The notes beneath the pieces are model-generated. The model worked only from the letters and a program-made list of their open reading frames with translations, did no database searches and was not told the DNA's origin. A DNA stretch of 50,638 nucleotides from Candidatus Methanomethylophilaceae archaeon (GTDB lineage: Archaea; Thermoplasmatota; Thermoplasmata; Methanomassiliicoccales; Methanomethylophilaceae): positions 1 to 50,638 of the forward strand of contig JAFYAH010000002.1 in the NCBI GenBank assembly GCA_017540825.1. Reading direction: 5' to 3'. Each line of letters begins with the position of its first letter. Positions within the stretch are counted from its first letter, which is position 1. A program made the translations under genes and the position numbers. This document shows positions 224 to 47,487 of the stretch, one piece after another.

Positions 224-430
224 GTGTTCAGGAACAACCAGGAGTTCTACAAGGCCCCGCTGTTCTGCCTCATGGACGTGTACAAGGATATGGAGATCCA
301 GATCTACATGATGGTGGCTTTACAGGCCTCCTCTTTCCGCGTGCGTTCGTCATTCGACGAGGAGATCGACAGCATCAGGAGAGAGCTGGAAAGGAACGGC
401 AGTCAGAAAGGAATGGTCCCCACTCCCTGA
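224..430 (+). CDS. short hypothetical ORF in the left flank of the element
   Basis: This 68-codon frame starts at GTG and ends inside the attachment core, so its last five residues come from the tRNA-derived repeat. The C-terminal half is charged (EEIDSIRRELERNG). I recognise no family. It lies in the DNA that must have followed tRNA-Tyr before the element integrated, and it may be the tail of an older integrated gene or chance coding. The 223 bases to its left are AT-rich, with TATA-like stretches near position 45, and hold no gene I can support. Confidence 0.25.
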   Translation: MFRNNQEFYKAPLFCLMDVYKDMEIQIYMMVALQASSFRVRSSFDEEIDSIRRELERNGSQKGMVPTP

Positions 431-468
431 TTTGTTGACGCGCTGGCCGTTGGGGAAGCGGGGACCAT
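403..468 (-). pseudogene. detached 5' end of the rep gene
   Basis: An ATG at 466-468 is preceded by a strong AGGAGG site about 8 bases upstream and lies 2 bases after the integrase stop. In the integrated state it encodes only 21 residues (MVPASPTASASTNQG, then GVGTIPF) and stops at 403-405. Across the attachment core its frame equals the frame of rep at 6764: position 421 in this copy corresponds to 6762 in the other. Recombination between the two cores would therefore fuse this start to the rep body, adding 15 residues. I infer that this is the true start of rep in the circular element. Confidence 0.8.
414..434. repeat. left attachment site (copy of tRNA-Tyr 3' end)
   Basis: These 21 bases are identical to 6755-6775, which include the CCA, discriminator base, acceptor 3' strand and T-stem of tRNA-Tyr. 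The bases just outside differ between copies, so the repeat is sharply bounded. It is the copy of the tRNA end left at the far side of the element after integration. Confidence 0.93.
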
Positions 469-470
469 GT

Positions 471-1433
471 TCACTTCCTCCTGGTGAGATCGTACTGGTA
501 GGCGTACATCCTGGACAGCGCGGCGCCCATGTCGTCGAGGTCTATGCCTAGGTAGCGGATCGTCGTTTTGACGTCCTCGTGGCCGAGCAGCTTCGCTATG
601 GTCTCGATCGGTATGCCGGCACGATATGCGGTGCGGCCGAAGGTCCTGCGGAGGGTGTGGTTGGAGAAGCGGAACCCGAGACGCTCGGACAGCTTGTGCA
701 TGACCGCGCGGTCGATGCTGTGCCCCCGGTCGGTGTAGGGCGCGGCCGTGGGATTCTTGTTGTAGTGGCACCAGAACAGGAGCTCGTCCGGGTCCCTCCA
801 CGTGGGGTCGTAGGCGTGCATCCTGGCGACCATGGACCCGCGCTCCTCGTACCATCTCTGGAGGACCTGCTAGGTGAGGGGATGGAAGGGGACGGTCCTC
901 CACTTGCCGTCGCCCCTGCCCTTTCCGCGGACCGAGACGTAGCACTTCTCCGGTACGTCGCTGCAGTGTATGTCCATCCTCCTGAGGCGGATGACCTCGA
1001 CCACTCTCATCCCGAGGCAGAGCTCCAGATGGACCACTATGTCCTCGAGGGGGGTCTTCTCGCAGGCCATGAGGATGTCGCGCTCCTCGTCGGAGAGCCA
1101 GTTGACGTTGGGGCGGTCGTCCTGTCCGAAGTCTATGCCCATGTCCTCAATCACGCTGTTCTTGAAGTAGCGGAGGTACCGGCCGAGGATGTGCTTGTAC
1201 CAGTCCTTGGTGGAGACCGCGAGGCCCTGGGAGTTCCAGGTATCCACGATGAACTGTATCGTCTCCTCGTCGTACTCCCTGGGGTTGTCGTTGTAGCCGT
1301 TCTCCCTGACGAGGGTGTTGATGTTGTAGAGCACGGCGGCGTACTTGTTCCTGGTCTCCTCCTTCGACTTCCTGTAGGTGTGGTCCAGGTGCTCCTTTAT
1401 GCAGCTCAGGCCCGAGAAGTTCCCTTTGGCCAT
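471..1433 (-). CDS. tyrosine integrase with in-frame TAG
   Basis: Tyrosine recombinase that would integrate and excise the element at the flanking 21-bp cores. An N-terminal SAM-like core-binding region covers roughly residues 1-110. The catalytic domain shows Arg I (LGMRVVEVIRL), a Lys strand (RGKGRGDGKWRTVPF), HxxR (HTLRRTFG), the second His (LLGHEDVKTT) and a Tyr in IRYLGID. The gene is interrupted at 870-872 by TAG, between the Lys strand and HxxR. The frame stays open for 12 codons on to the next ATG and then to TGA at 471-473, so nothing else is broken. The start at 1433 is chosen because GGAGGAG lies just upstream; ATG 1460 is an alternative. Without readthrough the protein lacks HxxR, His and the nucleophilic Tyr. 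TAG may be read as pyrrolysine, or the gene may be dead. Confidence 0.88.
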
Positions 1434-1548
1434 GCTCGCTCCTCCCCGCCCGAGGGCCATTCGACGGCCAATTTCTCGTTCAAACCGGGGTTCTCGAAGA
1501 ACCCCGATGGATCAGGACCTCCCTTGAGTTCCGATGTATTGTCAATAA

Positions 1549-1627: not shown

Positions 1628-1969
1628 ATGGTTCAGATTGGAAAGAATGTCAAATATGACGACTACGGAAGAGTGACGATTCCGGCGCAACTGGCCGAGA
1701 TGCTCAATCTAGTGAAGGGCCATGATGAGGTATGGTGGAACGTCGTGAACGGAAACGTATGTCTCATGAAAGTCACTAAGTCTTACAGCGGCTTCGACTT
1801 CGAAGTAAAGGAGATACAAGAGAATCTAAGGGAGTATGAAAAACGCTACTTGGATGAATACGATCCGACAAGCGAACTCTCCATGGAGGAGCTCGAAGAA
1901 AGGGCTCGCCAGGAATATCTGCGCGACAAGGCAGAGAGAGAAGCTTTCGTGAAGAGCAAAAAGAGTTGA
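1628..1969 (+). CDS. AbrB/SpoVT-type swapped-hairpin transcription regulator
   Basis: Residues 5-50 match the AbrB swapped-hairpin DNA-binding fold: the segment VKYDDYGRVTIPAQLAEML is the typical strand, loop and (R)VTIP core. The rest, to residue 113, is a highly charged, probably helical or coiled-coil tail (EVKEIQENLREYEKRY and later). Such proteins act as dimers on palindromic operators, often as plasmid or antitoxin regulators. It is transcribed divergently from the integrase, with palindromic sites in the gap between them. It probably represses its own promoter and may govern integrase. No partner toxin is seen next to it. Stop is TGA. Confidence 0.8.
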   Translation: MVQIGKNVKYDDYGRVTIPAQLAEMLNLVKGHDEVWWNVVNGNVCLMKVTKSYSGFDFEVKEIQENLREYEKRYLDEYDPTSELSMEELEERARQEYLRDKAEREAFVKSKKS

Positions 1970-2137
1970 AACTGGCCGAAGCGAAGGCGAAACTTCGCTT
2001 CGGCAACCACAAATGAAAAGCAAAAATCACGTTAGAACTGTAAGCGGAAAACCTAGTGCTACTTCTGGTGGCATCTTAGGTTAAGGTTTCCCTTCGGAAA
2101 CCCTCCGTATATATGCACGCGGTGCGTTATGCTCAGC

Positions 2138-2470
2138 ATGAGCACCACTGTCAACGTCAACATGCGCGTATGCGACAAGACCTGCAGAATCACCGCTACC
2201 CACCGCGAGGGCGGGGACGACATCGTCATCGTCTCCAACTGCGACAAGCTCCAGCAGCTCGGCGACGCCCTGAAGGACGGTGTGTCCTCTGACGACATCC
2301 TCGACATCTACAACGGGAAGATCATGACCCCCGAGGTCCGCGGCAACGTGTGCTATGAATGCCTTGCCATGCCGGCCGTGTTCAACGCCTGCTGGCTGGA
2401 GGAGGGCATGATTTCCAAGGGCCTGGCGAAGAGGTGCGGCAACAATTCCGTCGACTTCGACGAGGTCTGA
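2138..2470 (+). CDS. small cysteine-containing protein, DUF6951-like
   Basis: A protein of about 110 residues with cysteines in VCDKTCR, VSNCDK, NVCYECL, NACWLEE and KRCGNN. The pattern resembles a small archaeal family found mostly in methanogens (DUF6951-type), in which a CGF-like start, an S-x-C strand and a late Cys-Pro region recur. The function is unknown; the cysteines suggest metal binding or redox chemistry. TATATA at about 2108-2113 lies roughly 27 bases before ATG 2138, which suits a leaderless transcript and is why I prefer that start to ATG 2129. It sits inside the mobile element between the regulator and the restriction gene, so it is cargo or a maintenance gene. The family match rests on pattern recall only. 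Confidence 0.6.
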   Translation: MSTTVNVNMRVCDKTCRITATHREGGDDIVIVSNCDKLQQLGDALKDGVSSDDILDIYNGKIMTPEVRGNVCYECLAMPAVFNACWLEEGMISKGLAKRCGNNSVDFDEV

Positions 2471-2547: not shown

Positions 2548-3960
2548 TCATCTGAGATGCTTGTTAATTGTATCCTGGATGTAGGTGTCCTTCAGCCAGA
2601 ATGAGAGTTTCTTGACTTTACGGCCCTTATACATAGCCAAATCAGAACTATCACGTGCATGCGGCCTGACATGCGCAATCGGATTGCCAGACATTCCGAT
2701 GAAATTGTCGAAATCGTTCTTGAGAACCTTGCTCTTAGTATCCGACCACACAGATTCTATCACAGGCATGTCCTCGTCGGGAATGGTCCAAAAGAACGCC
2801 CCCTTGAATACAAGATCCTTACGAGATTGGGATTTAGGATTGTCAGTGAACGAGAACACCGTACTGAAGAACTCATGGTCAAGCTGATCGAAGAAATCGC
2901 TATCCTCCCAGTCTTGCTCAACGAGGCCATCGAACCTGATGTAGGGGAATGACATACTTTCCTTTGGCTTGCCATTCTTATATGTGCGAATAGTCTTGAA
3001 CAGGATGCCAGCTTCCTCGAATTCTTTGATGTGCTTCTTGCCAATGACCCCGGCCATGGCCAGGGACAACGTGCTGTAATACTGCTTGCTTCCATCATCG
3101 ATGGAAATATCCAATGCTGATTCAATTTCGCGGCAGGTCATTCCTTTGAATCTGCTGTAATAGTTGACGACATGCTCCTCGAACGTCTCCTCCGGAGACC
3201 AATTGCCGTGCAGAATGGACGTGGTGTCATCATTGATAATCGCTGCCAGAGTTTCGTTTATGTCCGCATGGCTATGGTACAGCTCGGTCATGAAAGAGGC
3301 CTTGAAGGAAAGAGCACGCTGCTTGGCTGGCTCCAAGGAGAACGGCTGGGAACGCATGTCCTTGCCATGACCTGCACCCTTGGTGCAGGCCGCAAGGTAC
3401 TTGGTATGCCTTTCCGAAAGGAGATGGGCCTCTCCGCGCATAACGTACCCCTCGATTACCGACCAATCCTCGCGGATCATACGGAGCTCCTCGGGAGTGG
3501 GCTTCCAGTCAACGACCTTCAGGAATTCATAGTCGTAGATGTCGGTGTTTTCCTCCCAGAGGTAGAATACGATGAGGATGTGTGAATCCTTGTCGAGGAA
3601 AATGTCGAAATGCCTCGTAGGGACCTCGTCGTAATTGATGATGCCGAGGATGAGCCTCTCCTTAGAAACGAGGCCCTTGGAGGTCTTTTTCATGGGGGTG
3701 ACCTTCAATTCAATCCCCGCATCTTGAAAGTCCGGAAGAGGGGAGCTGTTGTTTTCAATTAAGAAGTAGCCCTCCTCCACAATCTGGCCGAAATACCCCT
3801 TTGTATTGACGCCTCCGACAATGTGTTCGCCGAACTCTATGAGGCCGTTCAAGCTGTTCCCGGTGAGCTTGGCAGCATGAAGCAGGATTGACTTCTCATC
3901 GGTCTTATCATACGGCAGATAGGGGTCTATTTTTTTCTGCACCACGCCAGCGCGAATCAC
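2548..3960 (-). CDS. Sau3AI/MutH-family type II restriction endonuclease
   Basis: About 470 residues, close to the 489 of Sau3AI, which cuts GATC. The N-terminal MutH-like catalytic domain shows an early acidic and Lys-rich region (LPYDKTDEKSIL), then PDFQDAGIELKVTPMK, whose D and ExK form the PD-(D/E)xK site. A second MutH-like C-terminal domain follows, as in Sau3AI, where it binds DNA without cutting. The open frame extends upstream to 4278, but that part overlaps the divergent methyltransferase. I choose GTG at 3960 because a TATA-like CTTAAAG lies about 30 bases upstream. The gene is divergent from the methyltransferase across 66 bases, a normal restriction-modification layout. GATC specificity is inferred from family. 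Confidence 0.85.
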   Translation of the reverse strand: MIRAGVVQKKIDPYLPYDKTDEKSILLHAAKLTGNSLNGLIEFGEHIVGGVNTKGYFGQIVEEGYFLIENNSSPLPDFQDAGIELKVTPMKKTSKGLVSKERLILGIINYDEVPTRHFDIFLDKDSHILIVFYLWEENTDIYDYEFLKVVDWKPTPEELRMIREDWSVIEGYVMRGEAHLLSERHTKYLAACTKGAGHGKDMRSQPFSLEPAKQRALSFKASFMTELYHSHADINETLAAIINDDTTSILHGNWSPEETFEEHVVNYYSRFKGMTCREIESALDISIDDGSKQYYSTLSLAMAGVIGKKHIKEFEEAGILFKTIRTYKNGKPKESMSFPYIRFDGLVEQDWEDSDFFDQLDHEFFSTVFSFTDNPKSQSRKDLVFKGAFFWTIPDEDMPVIESVWSDTKSKVLKNDFDNFIGMSGNPIAHVRPHARDSSDLAMYKGRKVKKLSFWLKDTYIQDTINKHLR

Positions 3961-4026
3961 AGTAAATGTACATAAATGGGATGCGATCCAAACCTTTAAG
4001 AAACAGGTAAGATATGGCGAATCGAG

Positions 4027-5238
4027 ATGGGAGAGATAAAGGTCGTCGAACTGTTCGCAGGAGTCGGAGGATTGAGAGTCGGTCTCGAAAGGGCCTCTCC
4101 GGACTTCAAAACCATATGGGCAAACCAATGGGAACCGGGAAAGAAGAATCAGTTCGCATTCGATTGCTACAGTAAGCATTTCGGAAATACCGGTTCCATC
4201 AACATCAACGACGATATCGCCAAGGTGAAGGACCAGGTCCCCGAGCATGACCTTCTTGTCGGAGGTTTCCCATGCCAAGATTACTCAGTTGCAGCCACCA
4301 AGGCCAAGGGGATAGAGGGAAAGAAAGGCGTGCTGTGGTGGAGCATCCACGATATAATCAAAAACAAGCATCCAAAATACGTCATTCTGGAGAACGTGGA
4401 CAGGCTTGTCAGATCCCCTGTAAAGCAAAGGGGTCGCGACTTCGGAGTCATACTCAGATGCCTGGCTGATGAAGGCTATTACGTGGAATGGCGCATAGTG
4501 AATGCCGCAGAGTACGGTTTCCAACAGAGGCGCCGCCGTACATTCATATTCGCATGCAAGTCGGACGTCCCATTCGCCAAAACATACGAATCTGATTATT
4601 TCGAGAACATAATCAGGAGCAAGGGCTTTTTTGCAAGAGCGTTCCCGGTTACTGACAAGGTGTTCTCCAGCAAAGTCAACAAGTTCTCGATGGGCAAATG
4701 CAATTACACCACCCTGGTGGAGGTCTCGGATAATTTCGCAGAGGATTTCTACCGTGCTGGTGTGATGGTCGGCTACGATGTGTATACCAGAGAAGTGGAG
4801 CCGAAATCTCCGGACACCCAGATTACACTGAGGGACATTCTCGAGAAAGATGTGGACGAGAAGTACTACAAAATCGATATCGAGAAATGGCAGTACATGA
4901 AGGGTGCGAAGAAAGCTCTCCGCACCAGGAAGGACGGTAGCACCTACCATTATTCGGAAGGAGCCATACCGTTCCCCGACATTTTGGACAGGCCGGGCCG
5001 CACTATGCTTACCAGCGAGGGGACAGTGAACCGTTCGAGCCATTTGATTGAGGATCCGCAGACTAAGAGGATGAGAATCCTTACGCCGATTGAATGCGAA
5101 CGCCTCAACGGATTTCCCGATGATTGGACCAACACAGGAATGACTGAACGTCAGAGGTATTTCACCATGGGGAATGCCCTCGTGGTCCAGCTCATAGAAC
5201 GCATGGGTTCTACACTCATTAACGAAGTTATCAACTGA
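4027..5238 (+). CDS. C5-cytosine DNA methyltransferase of the restriction system
   Basis: Transfers methyl from S-adenosylmethionine to cytosine C5 and so protects host DNA from the neighbouring endonuclease. All main motifs are present in order: I (ELFAGVGGLRVGLE, near residue 6), IV with the catalytic Cys (GGFPCQDYSV), VI (ILENVDRL), VIII (QQRRRRTFIFA), a target-recognition region around 200-320, IX (RPGRTMLTSEGTVNR) and X (MGNALVVQLIERM). Its 403 residues are usual for the M.Sau3AI group. A TTTAAG box about 30 bases before the ATG suggests a leaderless transcript from the shared divergent promoter. The motifs look intact, so methylation is probably active. Confidence 0.93.
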   Translation: MGEIKVVELFAGVGGLRVGLERASPDFKTIWANQWEPGKKNQFAFDCYSKHFGNTGSININDDIAKVKDQVPEHDLLVGGFPCQDYSVAATKAKGIEGKKGVLWWSIHDIIKNKHPKYVILENVDRLVRSPVKQRGRDFGVILRCLADEGYYVEWRIVNAAEYGFQQRRRRTFIFACKSDVPFAKTYESDYFENIIRSKGFFARAFPVTDKVFSSKVNKFSMGKCNYTTLVEVSDNFAEDFYRAGVMVGYDVYTREVEPKSPDTQITLRDILEKDVDEKYYKIDIEKWQYMKGAKKALRTRKDGSTYHYSEGAIPFPDILDRPGRTMLTSEGTVNRSSHLIEDPQTKRMRILTPIECERLNGFPDDWTNTGMTERQRYFTMGNALVVQLIERMGSTLINEVIN

Positions 5239-5552: not shown

Positions 5553-6764
5553 TTAAGAGTTGGGTGTGTTGTCCACAAGCCCCAGTCTTATGCAAGCCTG
5601 GATGAGATTGAATTCTTGTTCGGTTATGGTTTTCACGAGTTTCCATGGAGACTTCTCTTCCGATTTGGGTTCAGGTAGCAGCCCTATCCGGTCCTTGAAA
5701 CCCTTCCCGAAGGACACGTCCCTCGTCCTGAAGCACTTGTTCCCGAGGTGCGTGAAGAGCATGGTACGGAGGCCCTTGTCCTTGACGGACGAGATATCTG
5801 GAAGATTCTTGATGGAGCTCTTGCCGTCCTCGGTGAGGCACTTGACGAGGTACTTGAAAGCGTAGGAGACGGTGTCCCTTCCCGACCTGGACCCGTCTCC
5901 CTTGACGATGCCCTCGAAGTCGATGAAGCCGTGCTTCCAGATGGGATTCATCCGTATGGCCTTGCGATGGTCGGTCCTGCAGAGCTTCCTCATGAGTGGC
6001 CCCTTCCCAATCCTGTCGAGGATGCGGGGGTCGCAGATCCTCCACGACTCGTTCCCTCCCTTTCCCCTGTGCTCCTCCACCATCACAGGCTTGTCGAGGA
6101 CGTAGATGCAGTGAGGGGCAGGGTAGCCGGAGGACTGGGCCTCCTTGGCCGTCAGCGTGCCGTGCTTACCGAATATCTTGCTTATGTTGGCGTTCAGGTT
6201 GTTCATGACGTTGTACTCGTAGTCCGCCCCCTCGGTGGGGGTGGACCGGAGGGCGGCCCAGGCCTCCTCCGCAGTGTACTGCTCGCGGTCGAAGTTGACA
6301 GTGGTGAGCAAGAGCCTGGTGTACCTCCTGTTGCGGAAGCCCTTCACCGGTATGTCGAATTCCTTACCATCCAGCGCAGCTTCGATCTCGTTCCTCTTCT
6401 TGGACTTCCTAGTTGCGTAGACCTTGTTGCCCCTCTTGGCTGAAAGCGCATATGTGAAAACCCCCGTTTCCTGGTTGAGAAATACGTTGTGGTCCTCCGC
6501 CTCGATCCAGTCGAGGAGGAGGGCCTGGAGATGGGAATCGTAGAGCGACAGCTCGCCGTCGAGGAGCTGCCTGATGAGGTCGCCCGGCTCGAAGGGCCAG
6601 TCCCCTCCGGCGTCCGTCCGGCGACGGACCTCGGCGCTGTGCAGGAGCTCGTCGATAATGCTGGGACGGCCGTCGGAGCCCTGCTCCGGCTTAACTCCGT
6701 AAGAGCATGCGGGACAGTTTAAGCCGTCAAATCTAGAAGGGTGCTGGGAAGGGGTGGTCCCCAC
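5553..6764 (-). CDS. rolling-circle-type replication initiator, body of a gene split by the att site
   Basis: A cysteine-containing N-terminus (CPACSYG) is followed by a core with LLLTTVNFDREQYTAEEAW, then GYPAPHCIYVLDKPV, resembling the metal-binding motif 2 of HUH initiators, then VSYAFKYLVKCL, resembling the catalytic Tyr motif 3 (YxxKY). This would nick the plus origin and start replication of the circular element. Only one His of the HUH pair is obvious. In the integrated state the frame begins at a GTG inside the tRNA-Tyr acceptor stem, with no ribosome site of its own, and could only be read from the tRNA promoter. The matching ATG and ribosome site lie at 466-482; excision would give a 418-residue protein. 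Stop is TAA. Confidence 0.72.
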   Translation of the reverse strand: MGTTPSQHPSRFDGLNCPACSYGVKPEQGSDGRPSIIDELLHSAEVRRRTDAGGDWPFEPGDLIRQLLDGELSLYDSHLQALLLDWIEAEDHNVFLNQETGVFTYALSAKRGNKVYATRKSKKRNEIEAALDGKEFDIPVKGFRNRRYTRLLLTTVNFDREQYTAEEAWAALRSTPTEGADYEYNVMNNLNANISKIFGKHGTLTAKEAQSSGYPAPHCIYVLDKPVMVEEHRGKGGNESWRICDPRILDRIGKGPLMRKLCRTDHRKAIRMNPIWKHGFIDFEGIVKGDGSRSGRDTVSYAFKYLVKCLTEDGKSSIKNLPDISSVKDKGLRTMLFTHLGNKCFRTRDVSFGKGFKDRIGLLPEPKSEEKSPWKLVKTITEQEFNLIQACIRLGLVDNTPNS

Positions 6765-6775
6765 TCCCTGATTTG
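6755..6775. repeat. right attachment site within tRNA-Tyr
   Basis: These 21 bases are identical to 414-434. They cover the CCA (complement at 6755-6757), discriminator A, the 3' acceptor strand and the T-stem of tRNA-Tyr. Because the tRNA is complete on this side, this is the original chromosomal copy joined to the element. Confidence 0.92.
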
Positions 6776-35260: not shown

Positions 35261-37054
35261 TTACGATGCGGATGCCTGAGAAGATGCCGCCGGATACGCG
35301 TCGAGCCCTTTGGGAGCCTTCTTTCTCGCCTCTATGCGCTCGAAAATGCCCGTGGATTCGGGCTTCACGCCGCTCAGAACCACCTGATTGCGGTTGTTAT
35401 CGTCGCGGTAATAGGTTGCTGTCAATTGGGTCAGCATCCTGCATATGGATTTGTTGTCGGGGCGATGGCTCCTGATCGCTCTGATTCCTTTGCGCATGAC
35501 GGCCACCACGTCCGCCGGATACTCGTAGCGTATGGCCGAAAGTACCGCCTCGGCCAGCAGGGCCAGCACCATGCGGCCCGTGATGGAGTCGTCGTCCCAG
35601 ACCCTCATCGGCTTGATGCCCGCAACGTTCTTCAGGGACCTTATCGCATGCTCTATAGCTATCCTCTTGCGGTACTTCTGTATGGCCTCCAACGGTGTCA
35701 AAGGGGCGCTGGATTCCAGATGGAAAAATCCGCAGTAGCGGCCCTTGTACTTCTCGACGAGCGCGGCCTTCTCCTCTTCCGAGTACTCAGTCAGTATCTG
35801 TTGGATGCTCACCTTAACGTCGAAGTCTATGAACTCGTTGGTCTTCACGTCCACGAGGCTCATGGGATCTATCTCGCCGTTCTATAGCGCCCTCGCAGCT
35901 TCCGCCATGCGCTCGACCTTGCGCTCGGCGGCATGTGCCTTGGCATCGGCGAGATAGTCCGCCCTGAAGACGTACTTCGTTCTGCCGGAGGACTCGAACG
36001 TCTCGCACCAGCATACGAGGCCCGGTTCCACCTCGATGGGTTCCTTCTCTTTCGCCAGCTCGAGATCGGCCTTGTTCATGCTCTTCCGGGTCAGGTACTC
36101 ATGCCCCATCCTGTTGATCGCTTCGGTGTTGTACACCGAAGCTCCGCCGTTGTCGAATATCACCCATGACGCGTTCCCGAGGGCCCTGTTGATCTCGAGG
36201 AGCGCGTTCTTCTCGGGCCCTTCTTCTTCATCGTCCTTGGGCTTCTTCTTGCGGCCCTTCCTGGCTTTGCCCCTGCTCAGACTGCTCAGTTCGCGCTCCT
36301 TGCTGCGGAGCCTTATGTTGGACACCAGCTTGTCGGAGATCCGCTCATATGCGTGGAGATCCTCGTGGTCGATAAGCCCCATCATCTCCGGCAGCGATTT
36401 CGCATACTGCTCCTCGTCGCTGACGTTGCCGGCATACTCGTGGATGTAGAACGGTATCCTGCTGTCTTCGAACATGCCCAGCATGAACTCGGCCTGCAAG
36501 CCGTCCGGGTTCTTGTCCCTGGGATATCCCGCCTTGCGGAGGCCGCCCTCGCTGTTGGCGGCTATGGACGAACCGTCGGCATCGACGTCCGTATCCAGTT
36601 CCGGGAACGTCTTCCTCAGCCCCCTGTAAAGTGCGAGGATCACCCCCTCCCTGTTGCGCCCGAGGATCTGCAGAGCGCGGTTCAGGGTCCTCTGCGAGAC
36701 CTCCTCTTTGATTCCGAAGAGCTTGCGGACGCGCGGATCCTTCAGCCACTCGGCGCACGCCGCCATCGAATTGTCCTCGGACAGGGCGAACGACATCAGG
36801 ATGGCGGTAAGCGATGCCATGCCCACGCCCTTCTTCTTGAGCGAGTCCAGGTATTGGCTCAGTCCCAGGCTATCGAAGTAGGCCCTCACCGCATCTATGA
36901 GTCCGATGGGAACTGTTATATTGTTGGCCGACGCCTTGCAGGTGTCGGCCGACACGGTTGCTTTGGTCACAACATGACGACAGTGCTCGGCCGTACACAT
37001 TATTGCCGACGTTACATGCGATCCATGCATGCATCCCCGAAATTGAGGCCGCAT
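35261..37054 (-). CDS. IS4-type DDE transposase with in-frame TAG
   Basis: The first Asp lies in DTDVDADGSSIA and the second in WVIFDNGGASVYN. At 35882-35884 a TAG interrupts the frame (after AARAL). The frame continues NGEIDP, then MSLVDVKTNEF, to TAA at 35261. The catalytic Glu lies after the TAG, in YRKRIAIEHAIRSLK, which fits the IS4-family YREK signature (Y-x2-R-x3-E-x6-K) exactly. A truncated product therefore cannot transpose; readthrough gives 597 residues. No other lesion is visible, and both terminal repeats are perfect, so the element looks recently active. The N-terminal start (37054 or a later ATG) is uncertain. If the host reads TAG as pyrrolysine the enzyme would be complete. 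Confidence 0.88.
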
Positions 37055-44201: not shown

Positions 44202-45563
44202 ATGTTTTTACATGGAATCGCCGTTGACAATCTCATGATGGAGGACCTCCGCACCGAGTTCAAGCGCGAATGGAGCAGGGAACACCTCCGCAACGTCGCC
44301 GCGTTCGCCAACACGGACGGAGGAACCTTGTACATAGGCTTGGCCGACGACGGCACTCCGATCGGAGTGAAAGACATAGAGAAGGCCTGAAACGCATCCC
44401 TGACGAGATACAGAACGCCCTGGGGATAGTCCCGACCGTTGACCGCTGCTCCGTGGACGGGAAGGAATGCATATCCATAGCAGTCGAAGAGCGCCGAGAC
44501 AGTGTTCCTGAGCGGGAGGGCATGGGTGAAGTCGGGAAGCACCACAAGGTCCCTGTCCGGCGCGGAGCTCAGGGAGAGGATACTGAAGGACTCCCGCATC
44601 TCGTGGACCGACCTCCCGGCGGACGGGATCGGCACAGACGACCTATCCCCCGAAGCCGTCAGGCATTTCATCAGGTCTTCCGGCAACGACGCCAACGTCT
44701 CGGAGCCTATAGCCGAGGGCGACATCCGCAGCGTGCTCTCCCATCTGGACATGATCAAGCCCGACGGCCGCATCTCCAAAGCCGCGGTGCTCCTCTTCCA
44801 TCCCGAGCCGTGGAGGGTCGTCCGCGGGGCCTTCCTCATGATAGGGGAGTTCTCGGAGAAGGACGACCTTATGAGGTAGGAGTACGTCAGATGCCCTCTG
44901 ATCTTGCTCCCAGACAGAGCCCTGTCCGTGCTCATGGACAAGTTCGTCCCCGGATCGTTCGACTATTCCGACATGAGAAGGAAGACGGTTCACAGGTACC
45001 CTCCCGAAGCGGTCCGCGAAATGCTGACCAACGCCATAATCCACAAAGACTCCTCCTCCCAGGAGCCTATAACGGTAAAGGTACGTCCTGGGAGCCTGTC
45101 CGTATTCAACTTCGGCAGTCTCCCCGAGGGCTGGACCGTGGAGGACCTGTACAGAGAGCACGCGTCGGTGCGCCACAACTACCTCATGGCCGAAGCCTTC
45201 CACGAGGCGGGATACATCGAGAAGTGGGGAAAGGGCATAGGCATGATCATAGAGTCCTGCAAAGAGGCGGGGCTCCCTGTCCCGATCTTCCAGGTACGCC
45301 AGAACGGCCTGGACGTCACCATCGAGAACCCGTCTGCAGAGACGGTTCCCGCAGGGCTGAGCGACGCAGAGGAGGCGGTCATGCGCGCCATAATGAACGG
45401 CTGCCGCACCAGAACGGCGATTTCAGCGGAGACGGGATTCTCGGATGCGAAGGTCAAAAGGGCTATATCCTCGCTCACCGAGTCGAATCGGATTAGAAGA
45501 GAAGGCTCCAACAAGAACGGACGCTGGGTTGTCCTCAGCGGCCAATTTTTTATCGGTTCATAA
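44202..45563 (+). pseudogene. AlbA_2 (Schlafen-like) regulator with frameshifts and in-frame TAG
   Basis: The first part (TEFKREWSREHLRNVAAFANTDGG read in pieces, then IGLADDGTPIGV) is an AlbA_2 domain. At about 44385 the frame shifts to KRIPDEIQNALGIVPTVDR and ECISIAVEE, and near 44490 it shifts back to TVFLSGRAWVKSGSTTRSL. A TAG at 44877-44879 follows DLMR; the frame goes on with EYVRCPLILLPDRALSVLMD, YPPEAVREMLTNAIIHKDSS and a C-terminal winged helix (AEEAVMRAIMNGCRTRTAIS-like). Three lesions make a functional protein unlikely. A sister remnant lies at 17800-18461. Stop TAA. Confidence 0.82.
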
Positions 45564-46539: not shown

Positions 46540-47487
46540 ATGGCACAGAACGGGCGCATGAGGCCGACGGCGGACCAGGACTTCAAGGCGATGATGGGGG
46601 ATCCCAGGGTGCTCGCCTGCCTGCTGAGGATCGCCGTGCCGGAGATGGATAACACGAGCGCGGAGTCGGTCCGCGAGATGATGAGGAACGGCACGATAGC
46701 GCCGCTGAACACCGAGCTGGTGACGCCCATGGGCCGGCCCATGCGCATGGACGTGTTTTACAAGGTCCTCTTACCGGGAGGAAGATGGGCATAGGTCGAC
46801 ATCGAAGGGCAGATGTACCGCGATCGCGGCGACAGGTATCTCCGCAGGGGGCTGGCGTACACAGCAAAGGTCCTGGACGACCAAAGAGGGCTGCCCGGAT
46901 GGAAAGGATACTCGAGCACGTGCAAGGTGTACGCGATATGGGTGCTCTTCGAGCCGCACAGGACGGAGCGCAACGCGGTCGTCAGGCACAGGATAGAAGG
47001 CGCCGTCGAATCGCGCCTGCACAGGCCGGCACCCGAAAGCCTCGACATGATCGACCTTGTCACCGTGGGGATAGGGCACCCGGACGATGCCGAGACCGAG
47101 GACATGAAATCGTTCGACGCCCTGTTCTATAAGAAGATAGGAAGAAGGAAGCAGGAGAGAATTCTGAAGGAAGCTTTTAAGTTGAGTCCGAAAGATGGTC
47201 TTCTGAGACTGACAAGAGGTTGGAGGATGAGCCTAGACAAGGAGTTCGAGAACCACTGGAAGAGGATAGGAAGGAAAGAAGGAGTCGCGATTGGCGTGGA
47301 GAAAGGAGTTGCAAAAGGGAGAGCAGAGGAGCGCGAGAAAACCGTGGAGATGTACGCTGACTCGGTCCTGGCCATCATGAAGGAGAAAGGGGATTCCCTC
47401 GAAGACTCGATGAGGTACGTTCCGTCCCAATTATCCGATCTGGTTAGGAAAAGGGTGGAAGACAGATTGGCCAAAGCTACCCCATGA
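46540..47487 (+). CDS. Rpn/YhgA-like PD-(D/E)XK nuclease-transposase protein with in-frame TAG
   Basis: The N-terminus (TADQDFKAMMGDPRVLACLL, then LNTELVTPMGRPMRMDVFYKV) is that of the PD-(D/E)XK transposase-associated family (Rpn-like), with the catalytic Asp in RMDVFYKV. TAG at 46792-46794 follows GGRWA; four codons later comes VDIEGQM, with the catalytic Glu and Gln. The frame then continues unbroken through RRGLAYTAKVL and WVLFEP to a basic, helical C-terminus, ending in TGA at 47487. A stop here would remove half the active site, so the gene works only with readthrough. A CTTTTAAG box lies about 28 bases before ATG 46540. Rpn proteins are nucleases linked to recombination and phage defence. 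Confidence 0.8.

Follow-up and report, generated by a model that had tools for sequence, protein, structure and literature searches.

Does an in-frame TAG within an archaeal integrase gene end the protein, or is it read as pyrrolysine (Pyl)? The question is posed by a 50,638-nucleotide stretch of a Candidatus Methanomethylophilaceae genome (the window, in the genome here called G000), in which a tyrosine integrase gene (471..1433, minus strand) carries a TAG at 870..872 (minus strand; codon 188 of 320), as located from the reverse complement, the reading frames and an alignment. An earlier note on this DNA had placed the TAG between the strand bearing the catalytic Lys and the HxxR, His and Tyr motifs, in a frame intact on both sides with all catalytic residues present. 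It had suggested that the enzyme would be complete in a Pyl-decoding host, and that the codon could restrict the element to such hosts or tie integration and excision to Pyl supply.

The integrase gene and the element that carries it

The gene was assigned from Pfam (PF00589, Phage_integrase), a PHROG integrase match (E = 1.2e-29) and its homologues. The TAG joins, in a single frame, an open reading frame at 1460..873 and a continuing frame at 869..471. From the start placed by homology (an ATG at 1433, opening the MAKGN common to the closest relatives), the frame (1433..471) runs across 320 codons with no further stop or frameshift, giving 320 amino acids if the TAG is read through and 187 if it is a stop. 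The Pfam match spans the TAG (E = 1.7e-15; 57.7 bits against a cut-off of 27.1), and a 27-sequence alignment revealed a complete active site (R143, K171, H259-x-x-R262, H285 and Y294), with the TAG in a non-conserved column between the β-hairpin catalytic Lys and the HxxR motif; the position and the intact frame described in the earlier note were thus both borne out. In the fold model (mean pLDDT 88, approximately 95 around the TAG residue), for which XerA and Cre were the closest structures, the TAG residue is the second of a helix (residues 187–208) that directly follows the strand after the catalytic Lys. Activity in site-specific recombination is putative, with att repeats found for the enzyme.

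These repeats are 27-nt direct repeats at 408-434 and 6749-6775 (25/27 identical) that bound an element of approximately 6.3 kb. The integrase-proximal copy (408..434) reads AAGGAATGGTCCCCACTCCCTGATTTG, and the copy at the distal end (6749..6775) was recognized by the repeat match and by a flank beyond it that is conserved in two related genomes (G014 and G018). The 19-nt att core, GTCCCCACTCCCTGATTTG, recurs at the ends of related elements in G014 and G021 and, with two mismatches at one end, of one in G018; because the sequence beyond the distal repeat is common to G014 and G018, the elements of these two genomes occupy the same chromosomal site as that of the window. Inward from the integrase, the window element encodes a weak match to AbrB/MazE-like DNA-binding proteins (1628..1969, plus strand; Pfam MazE_antitoxin, E = 0.0085, below the curated cut-off), a DUF6951 protein (2129..2470, plus strand; PF22263, E = 1.4e-9), a MutH-domain (Sau3AI-like) restriction endonuclease (2548..4278, minus strand; Pfam MutH, E = 3.7e-29), a C-5 cytosine DNA methyltransferase (4027..5238, plus strand; PF00145, E = 1.7e-66) and a 403-amino-acid protein (5553..6764, minus strand). 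By their domains, the endonuclease and methylase are a type II restriction–modification pair; the true start of the endonuclease probably lies near 3950, since the 5′ part of its frame overlaps the methylase in antisense. The 403-amino-acid protein matched no Pfam or PHROG family and is common to the related elements, with 86–91% DNA identity to the copy in the G018 element and weaker similarity in G014 and G021.

The related elements differ in arrangement. G014 holds a tandem array of two (L059 and L055, G014:C1:1587738-1611718), with the same att core and an integrase of its own ending each. In G018, the element at the same chromosomal site (L060 1033-8765, G018:C32) has the integrase N-terminal half and the restriction–modification cargo replaced by another region, with an iron/siderophore-type ABC transporter (named by sequence inspection) and an AraC-like regulator. 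Excision in the related strain ISO4-H5 has been reported for a mobile element whose genes include an integrase, cytosine methylases and a mismatch endonuclease (PMC5011839).

Evidence for TAG decoding in the host genome

The earlier note had proposed looking for pylS and pylT in the genome, and both are present: G000 encodes a tRNA-Pyl with anticodon CTA (tRNA-Pyl(CUA)) and, at G000:C68, a pylS above the curated cut-off; pylB is likewise above its cut-off, and open reading frames for pylC and pylD follow in the cassette. Adjoining the cassette is mtmB (monomethylamine methyltransferase), whose internal TAG is spanned by a PF05369 match (E = 1.6e-228). Along with the Thermoplasmata label of a relative, the cassette and mtmB point to a place in the Methanomassiliicoccales.

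We also surveyed stop usage across 447 kb (approximately 19% of the genome). Open reading frames continued as coding sequence past the stop for 11 of 26 TAGs, 23 of 292 TGAs and 1 of 38 TAAs, figures that serve as a guide only, as by eye the TGA cases look mostly like in-frame neighbouring genes downstream. As a terminator TAG was rare in this survey, ending few convincing genes, and coding continued past TAG in about ten. Four of these lie within the window: the integrase, a DDE transposase gene (35261..36970, minus strand), a HATPase_c_4 protein gene (44502..45563, plus strand) and a gene with no family assigned (46540..47487, plus strand), several homologues of which were also flagged for TAG. 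Together, these patterns indicate that TAG is probably a working sense codon in this host.

In-frame TAGs were also seen elsewhere in G000. A tandem set of three tyrosine recombinases that looks like a recombinase-trio element (L057 6973-9919, G000:C56) has two in its first member and one in its second, both members seemingly without catalytic residues, and a DUF6270/Sel1-repeat protein (L071 15769-17583, G000:C18) has two; a Sel1 protein is likewise on the Methanomethylophilus alvus (M. alvus) amber list (PMC4153887).

The most telling case lies in rpoA2, the single-copy gene for RNA polymerase A″ (L093, G000:C48:36359-37846, minus strand), which has an internal TAG at codon 103, in the linker between the HHH domain and A″. 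Seven species of the genus (G000, G018, G002, G001, G006, G026 and G029) have TAG at exactly this codon (CTC TAG), the six besides G000 having proteins 71–86% identical to that of G000; no internal TAG occurs in the remaining family members, and those of their flagged TGAs that were checked proved to be terminal stops. We considered, and dropped, the idea that TGA and TAA flags marked decaying rpoA2 copies, as the coordinates place most of them immediately ahead of the start Met or at the genuine C-terminal end. We also considered that the gene is split at the linker. This is disfavoured by the lack of any ATG, GTG or TTG for 48 codons after the TAG in G000, among them those of the conserved LPxKII motif, and by the finding of no TGA or TAA at that site in relatives; the linker position leaves splitting a small chance. 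PylS was above the cut-off in five of the seven species and PylB was found in a sixth (G002), while the seventh, G006 (82% complete), yielded neither PylS nor PylB. On this comparative evidence, TAG is almost certainly decoded in rpoA2.

These cases also bear on the possibility that the genome, which was assembled from a metagenome, carries a sequencing or assembly error at the integrase TAG. The Lys codon AAG differs from TAG by a single base, and the contig (C9) begins near the site, yet several other genes of G000 are interrupted by TAG, one of them in seven separate genomes, and we regard an error as highly improbable.

Origin and consequences of the integrase TAG

In which relatives, then, does the codon occur? 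The earlier note had called for an alignment of close homologues, allowing that sense codons there, in a genome lacking Pyl machinery, would tell against decoding; the sense codons were found, in every homologue examined and including congeners that decode Pyl, and the Pyl machinery is present. Lys occupies the TAG column in the two nearest intact integrases, those of G021 (68% identity) and G014 (67%), both of the same genus, and in other homologues the column is filled by E, R, Q, K, S, A, G, M, N, L or Y. Pyl is thus not conserved at the homologous position as it is in MtmB, MtbB and MttB. Across the genus, approximately 90 catalytic-domain matches from 19 genomes were compared, and the window copy alone has an internal stop. 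TGA and TAA flags in homologues might suggest decaying integrases, but nearly all of them sit immediately ahead of the start Met or at the C-terminus, and we dropped this reading. The searched collections contained no near-identical full-length copy that would show the TAG to be maintained; the viral contigs yielded no relatives, and the genome contigs only a fragment in G018.

That fragment is C-terminal and shares 98% protein identity with the region downstream of the TAG. Over the 110 codons that it shares with the window downstream of the TAG, there are 10 synonymous and 2 nonsynonymous differences, a ratio implying selection on the post-TAG sequence as protein since the split from G018; judged by these substitutions, the sequence downstream of the TAG is real coding sequence under purifying selection.

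The main rival reading is a fresh nonsense mutation that has inactivated the integrase, stranding the element at the onset of gene decay. Such a mutation is possible, and several observations fit it: TAG was absent from all homologues examined; the related G018 element retains only the C-terminal part of its integrase, its loss of the N-terminal half indicating that this element lineage can decay; and approximately 66% of random single-base nonsense changes in the gene were computed to yield TAG, making it the likeliest random nonsense codon here. For this last reason, the letters TAG alone are weak evidence for Pyl, and we rejected them as proof. However, the evidence from the host is strong, as TAG is decoded in its mtmB and, almost certainly, in its rpoA2; no second stop or frameshift has accumulated in the 320 integrase codons, and the ten similar TAG cases in 447 kb represent a share far above that of TGA or TAA. 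On balance, we consider inactivation unlikely, if less so than an error.

We instead favour, with fairly high confidence, a full-length integrase containing Pyl, in which AAG (Lys) changed fairly recently to TAG at a tolerant surface position and did so harmlessly in a host that reads TAG. The variability of the TAG column in homologues indicates that the position tolerates change, and AAG to TAG requires one base; the change would have been harmless because this archaeon routinely reads TAG as Pyl. Translation of the integrase messenger RNA would then place Pyl at residue 188, where a helix begins behind the catalytic-Lys β-hairpin, and the product, a 320-residue XerA/Cre-like recombinase, would have as its substrates the 27-nt att repeats that bound the 6.3-kb restriction–modification element. 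In this account we infer that the integrase is transcribed, that Pyl insertion exceeds termination at the TAG, that residue 188 lies at the protein surface and that an enzyme containing Pyl is active. The integrase probably contains Pyl, a prediction from the host pyl genes and from an in-frame TAG with homologous protein on both sides. The earlier suggestion of a complete enzyme in a Pyl-decoding host accordingly describes the likeliest product, since each sequence-based test pointed to TAG decoding in the host: pylT, pylS and pylBCD, the amber codons of mtmB and, conserved across species, rpoA2, and the rarity of terminal TAG.

The further suggestion of an adaptive TAG, which would link integration and excision to Pyl supply or confine the element to Pyl-decoding hosts, found no support. 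The host decodes TAG, and the codon lies where it would make the catalytic half Pyl-dependent; but Lys stands at this variable position in homologous integrases whose elements share the att core and reside in the same Pyl-decoding genus, and genomes in which no PylS passed the cut-off carry related integrases too. Moreover, because the RNA polymerase gene of the host carries a TAG too, Pyl supply would make no sensitive switch: a fall in Pyl would stop transcription before any specific effect on the integrase. We therefore judge adaptation to be very improbable. In a host without Pyl the element would lose its full-length integrase, as a side effect with no evidence of selection.

Implications and comparison with known systems

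The integrase is most informative for where it led: in seven species, an essential RNA polymerase gene present in single copy has TAG fixed at the same codon, a clean and testable indication that the clade cannot live without TAG decoding. A full archaeal genetic code with TAG as Pyl has reportedly been proposed. As a conjecture that may well prove wrong, we tentatively suggest that TAG is now an obligatory sense codon of the seven-species clade, even for RNA polymerase A″, that its resident mobile elements acquire TAGs of the kind seen here and thereby travel poorly to hosts lacking Pyl, and that this difference in decoding forms a barrier to gene transfer. In practice, many genes in this clade, among them genes of mobile elements, will be split by gene callers that assume TAG to be a stop.

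For this order, incidental amber codons are already on record, some of them in insertion sequences, and the integrase adds one more case. In M. alvus, Borrel and colleagues listed 16 amber-containing non-methyltransferase genes, with TAG at 1.6% of stops, and argued that amber codons become stable mutations in such hosts (PMC4153887); ISO4-H5 has 46 amber-containing genes, ten of them insertion sequences (PMC5011839). The window host resembles both (PMC4153887, PMC5011839) in belonging to the same order, in its full pyl cassette and rarely terminal TAG, and in carrying TAG in individual genes where homologues use sense codons, theirs including insertion sequences, Cas1 and Cas3. It differs in that the TAG lies in an integrative element with defined att repeats, and the amber table of M. 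alvus names no integrase (PMC4153887). Pyl-containing transposases known from Methanosarcina, where they form Pyl clusters (PMC3639795; also cited in PMC8211752), are likewise recombination enzymes of mobile elements with an in-frame TAG in a Pyl-decoding archaeon, whereas the window case is one tyrosine integrase with homologues lacking TAG. Finally, the integrase shares its fold and its R-K-HxxR-H-Y active site with XerA/Cre-type tyrosine recombinases (PDB 5hxy, 4a8e and 3crx) and, unlike them, is encoded by an element, adjoins its own att site and carries a TAG at codon 188.
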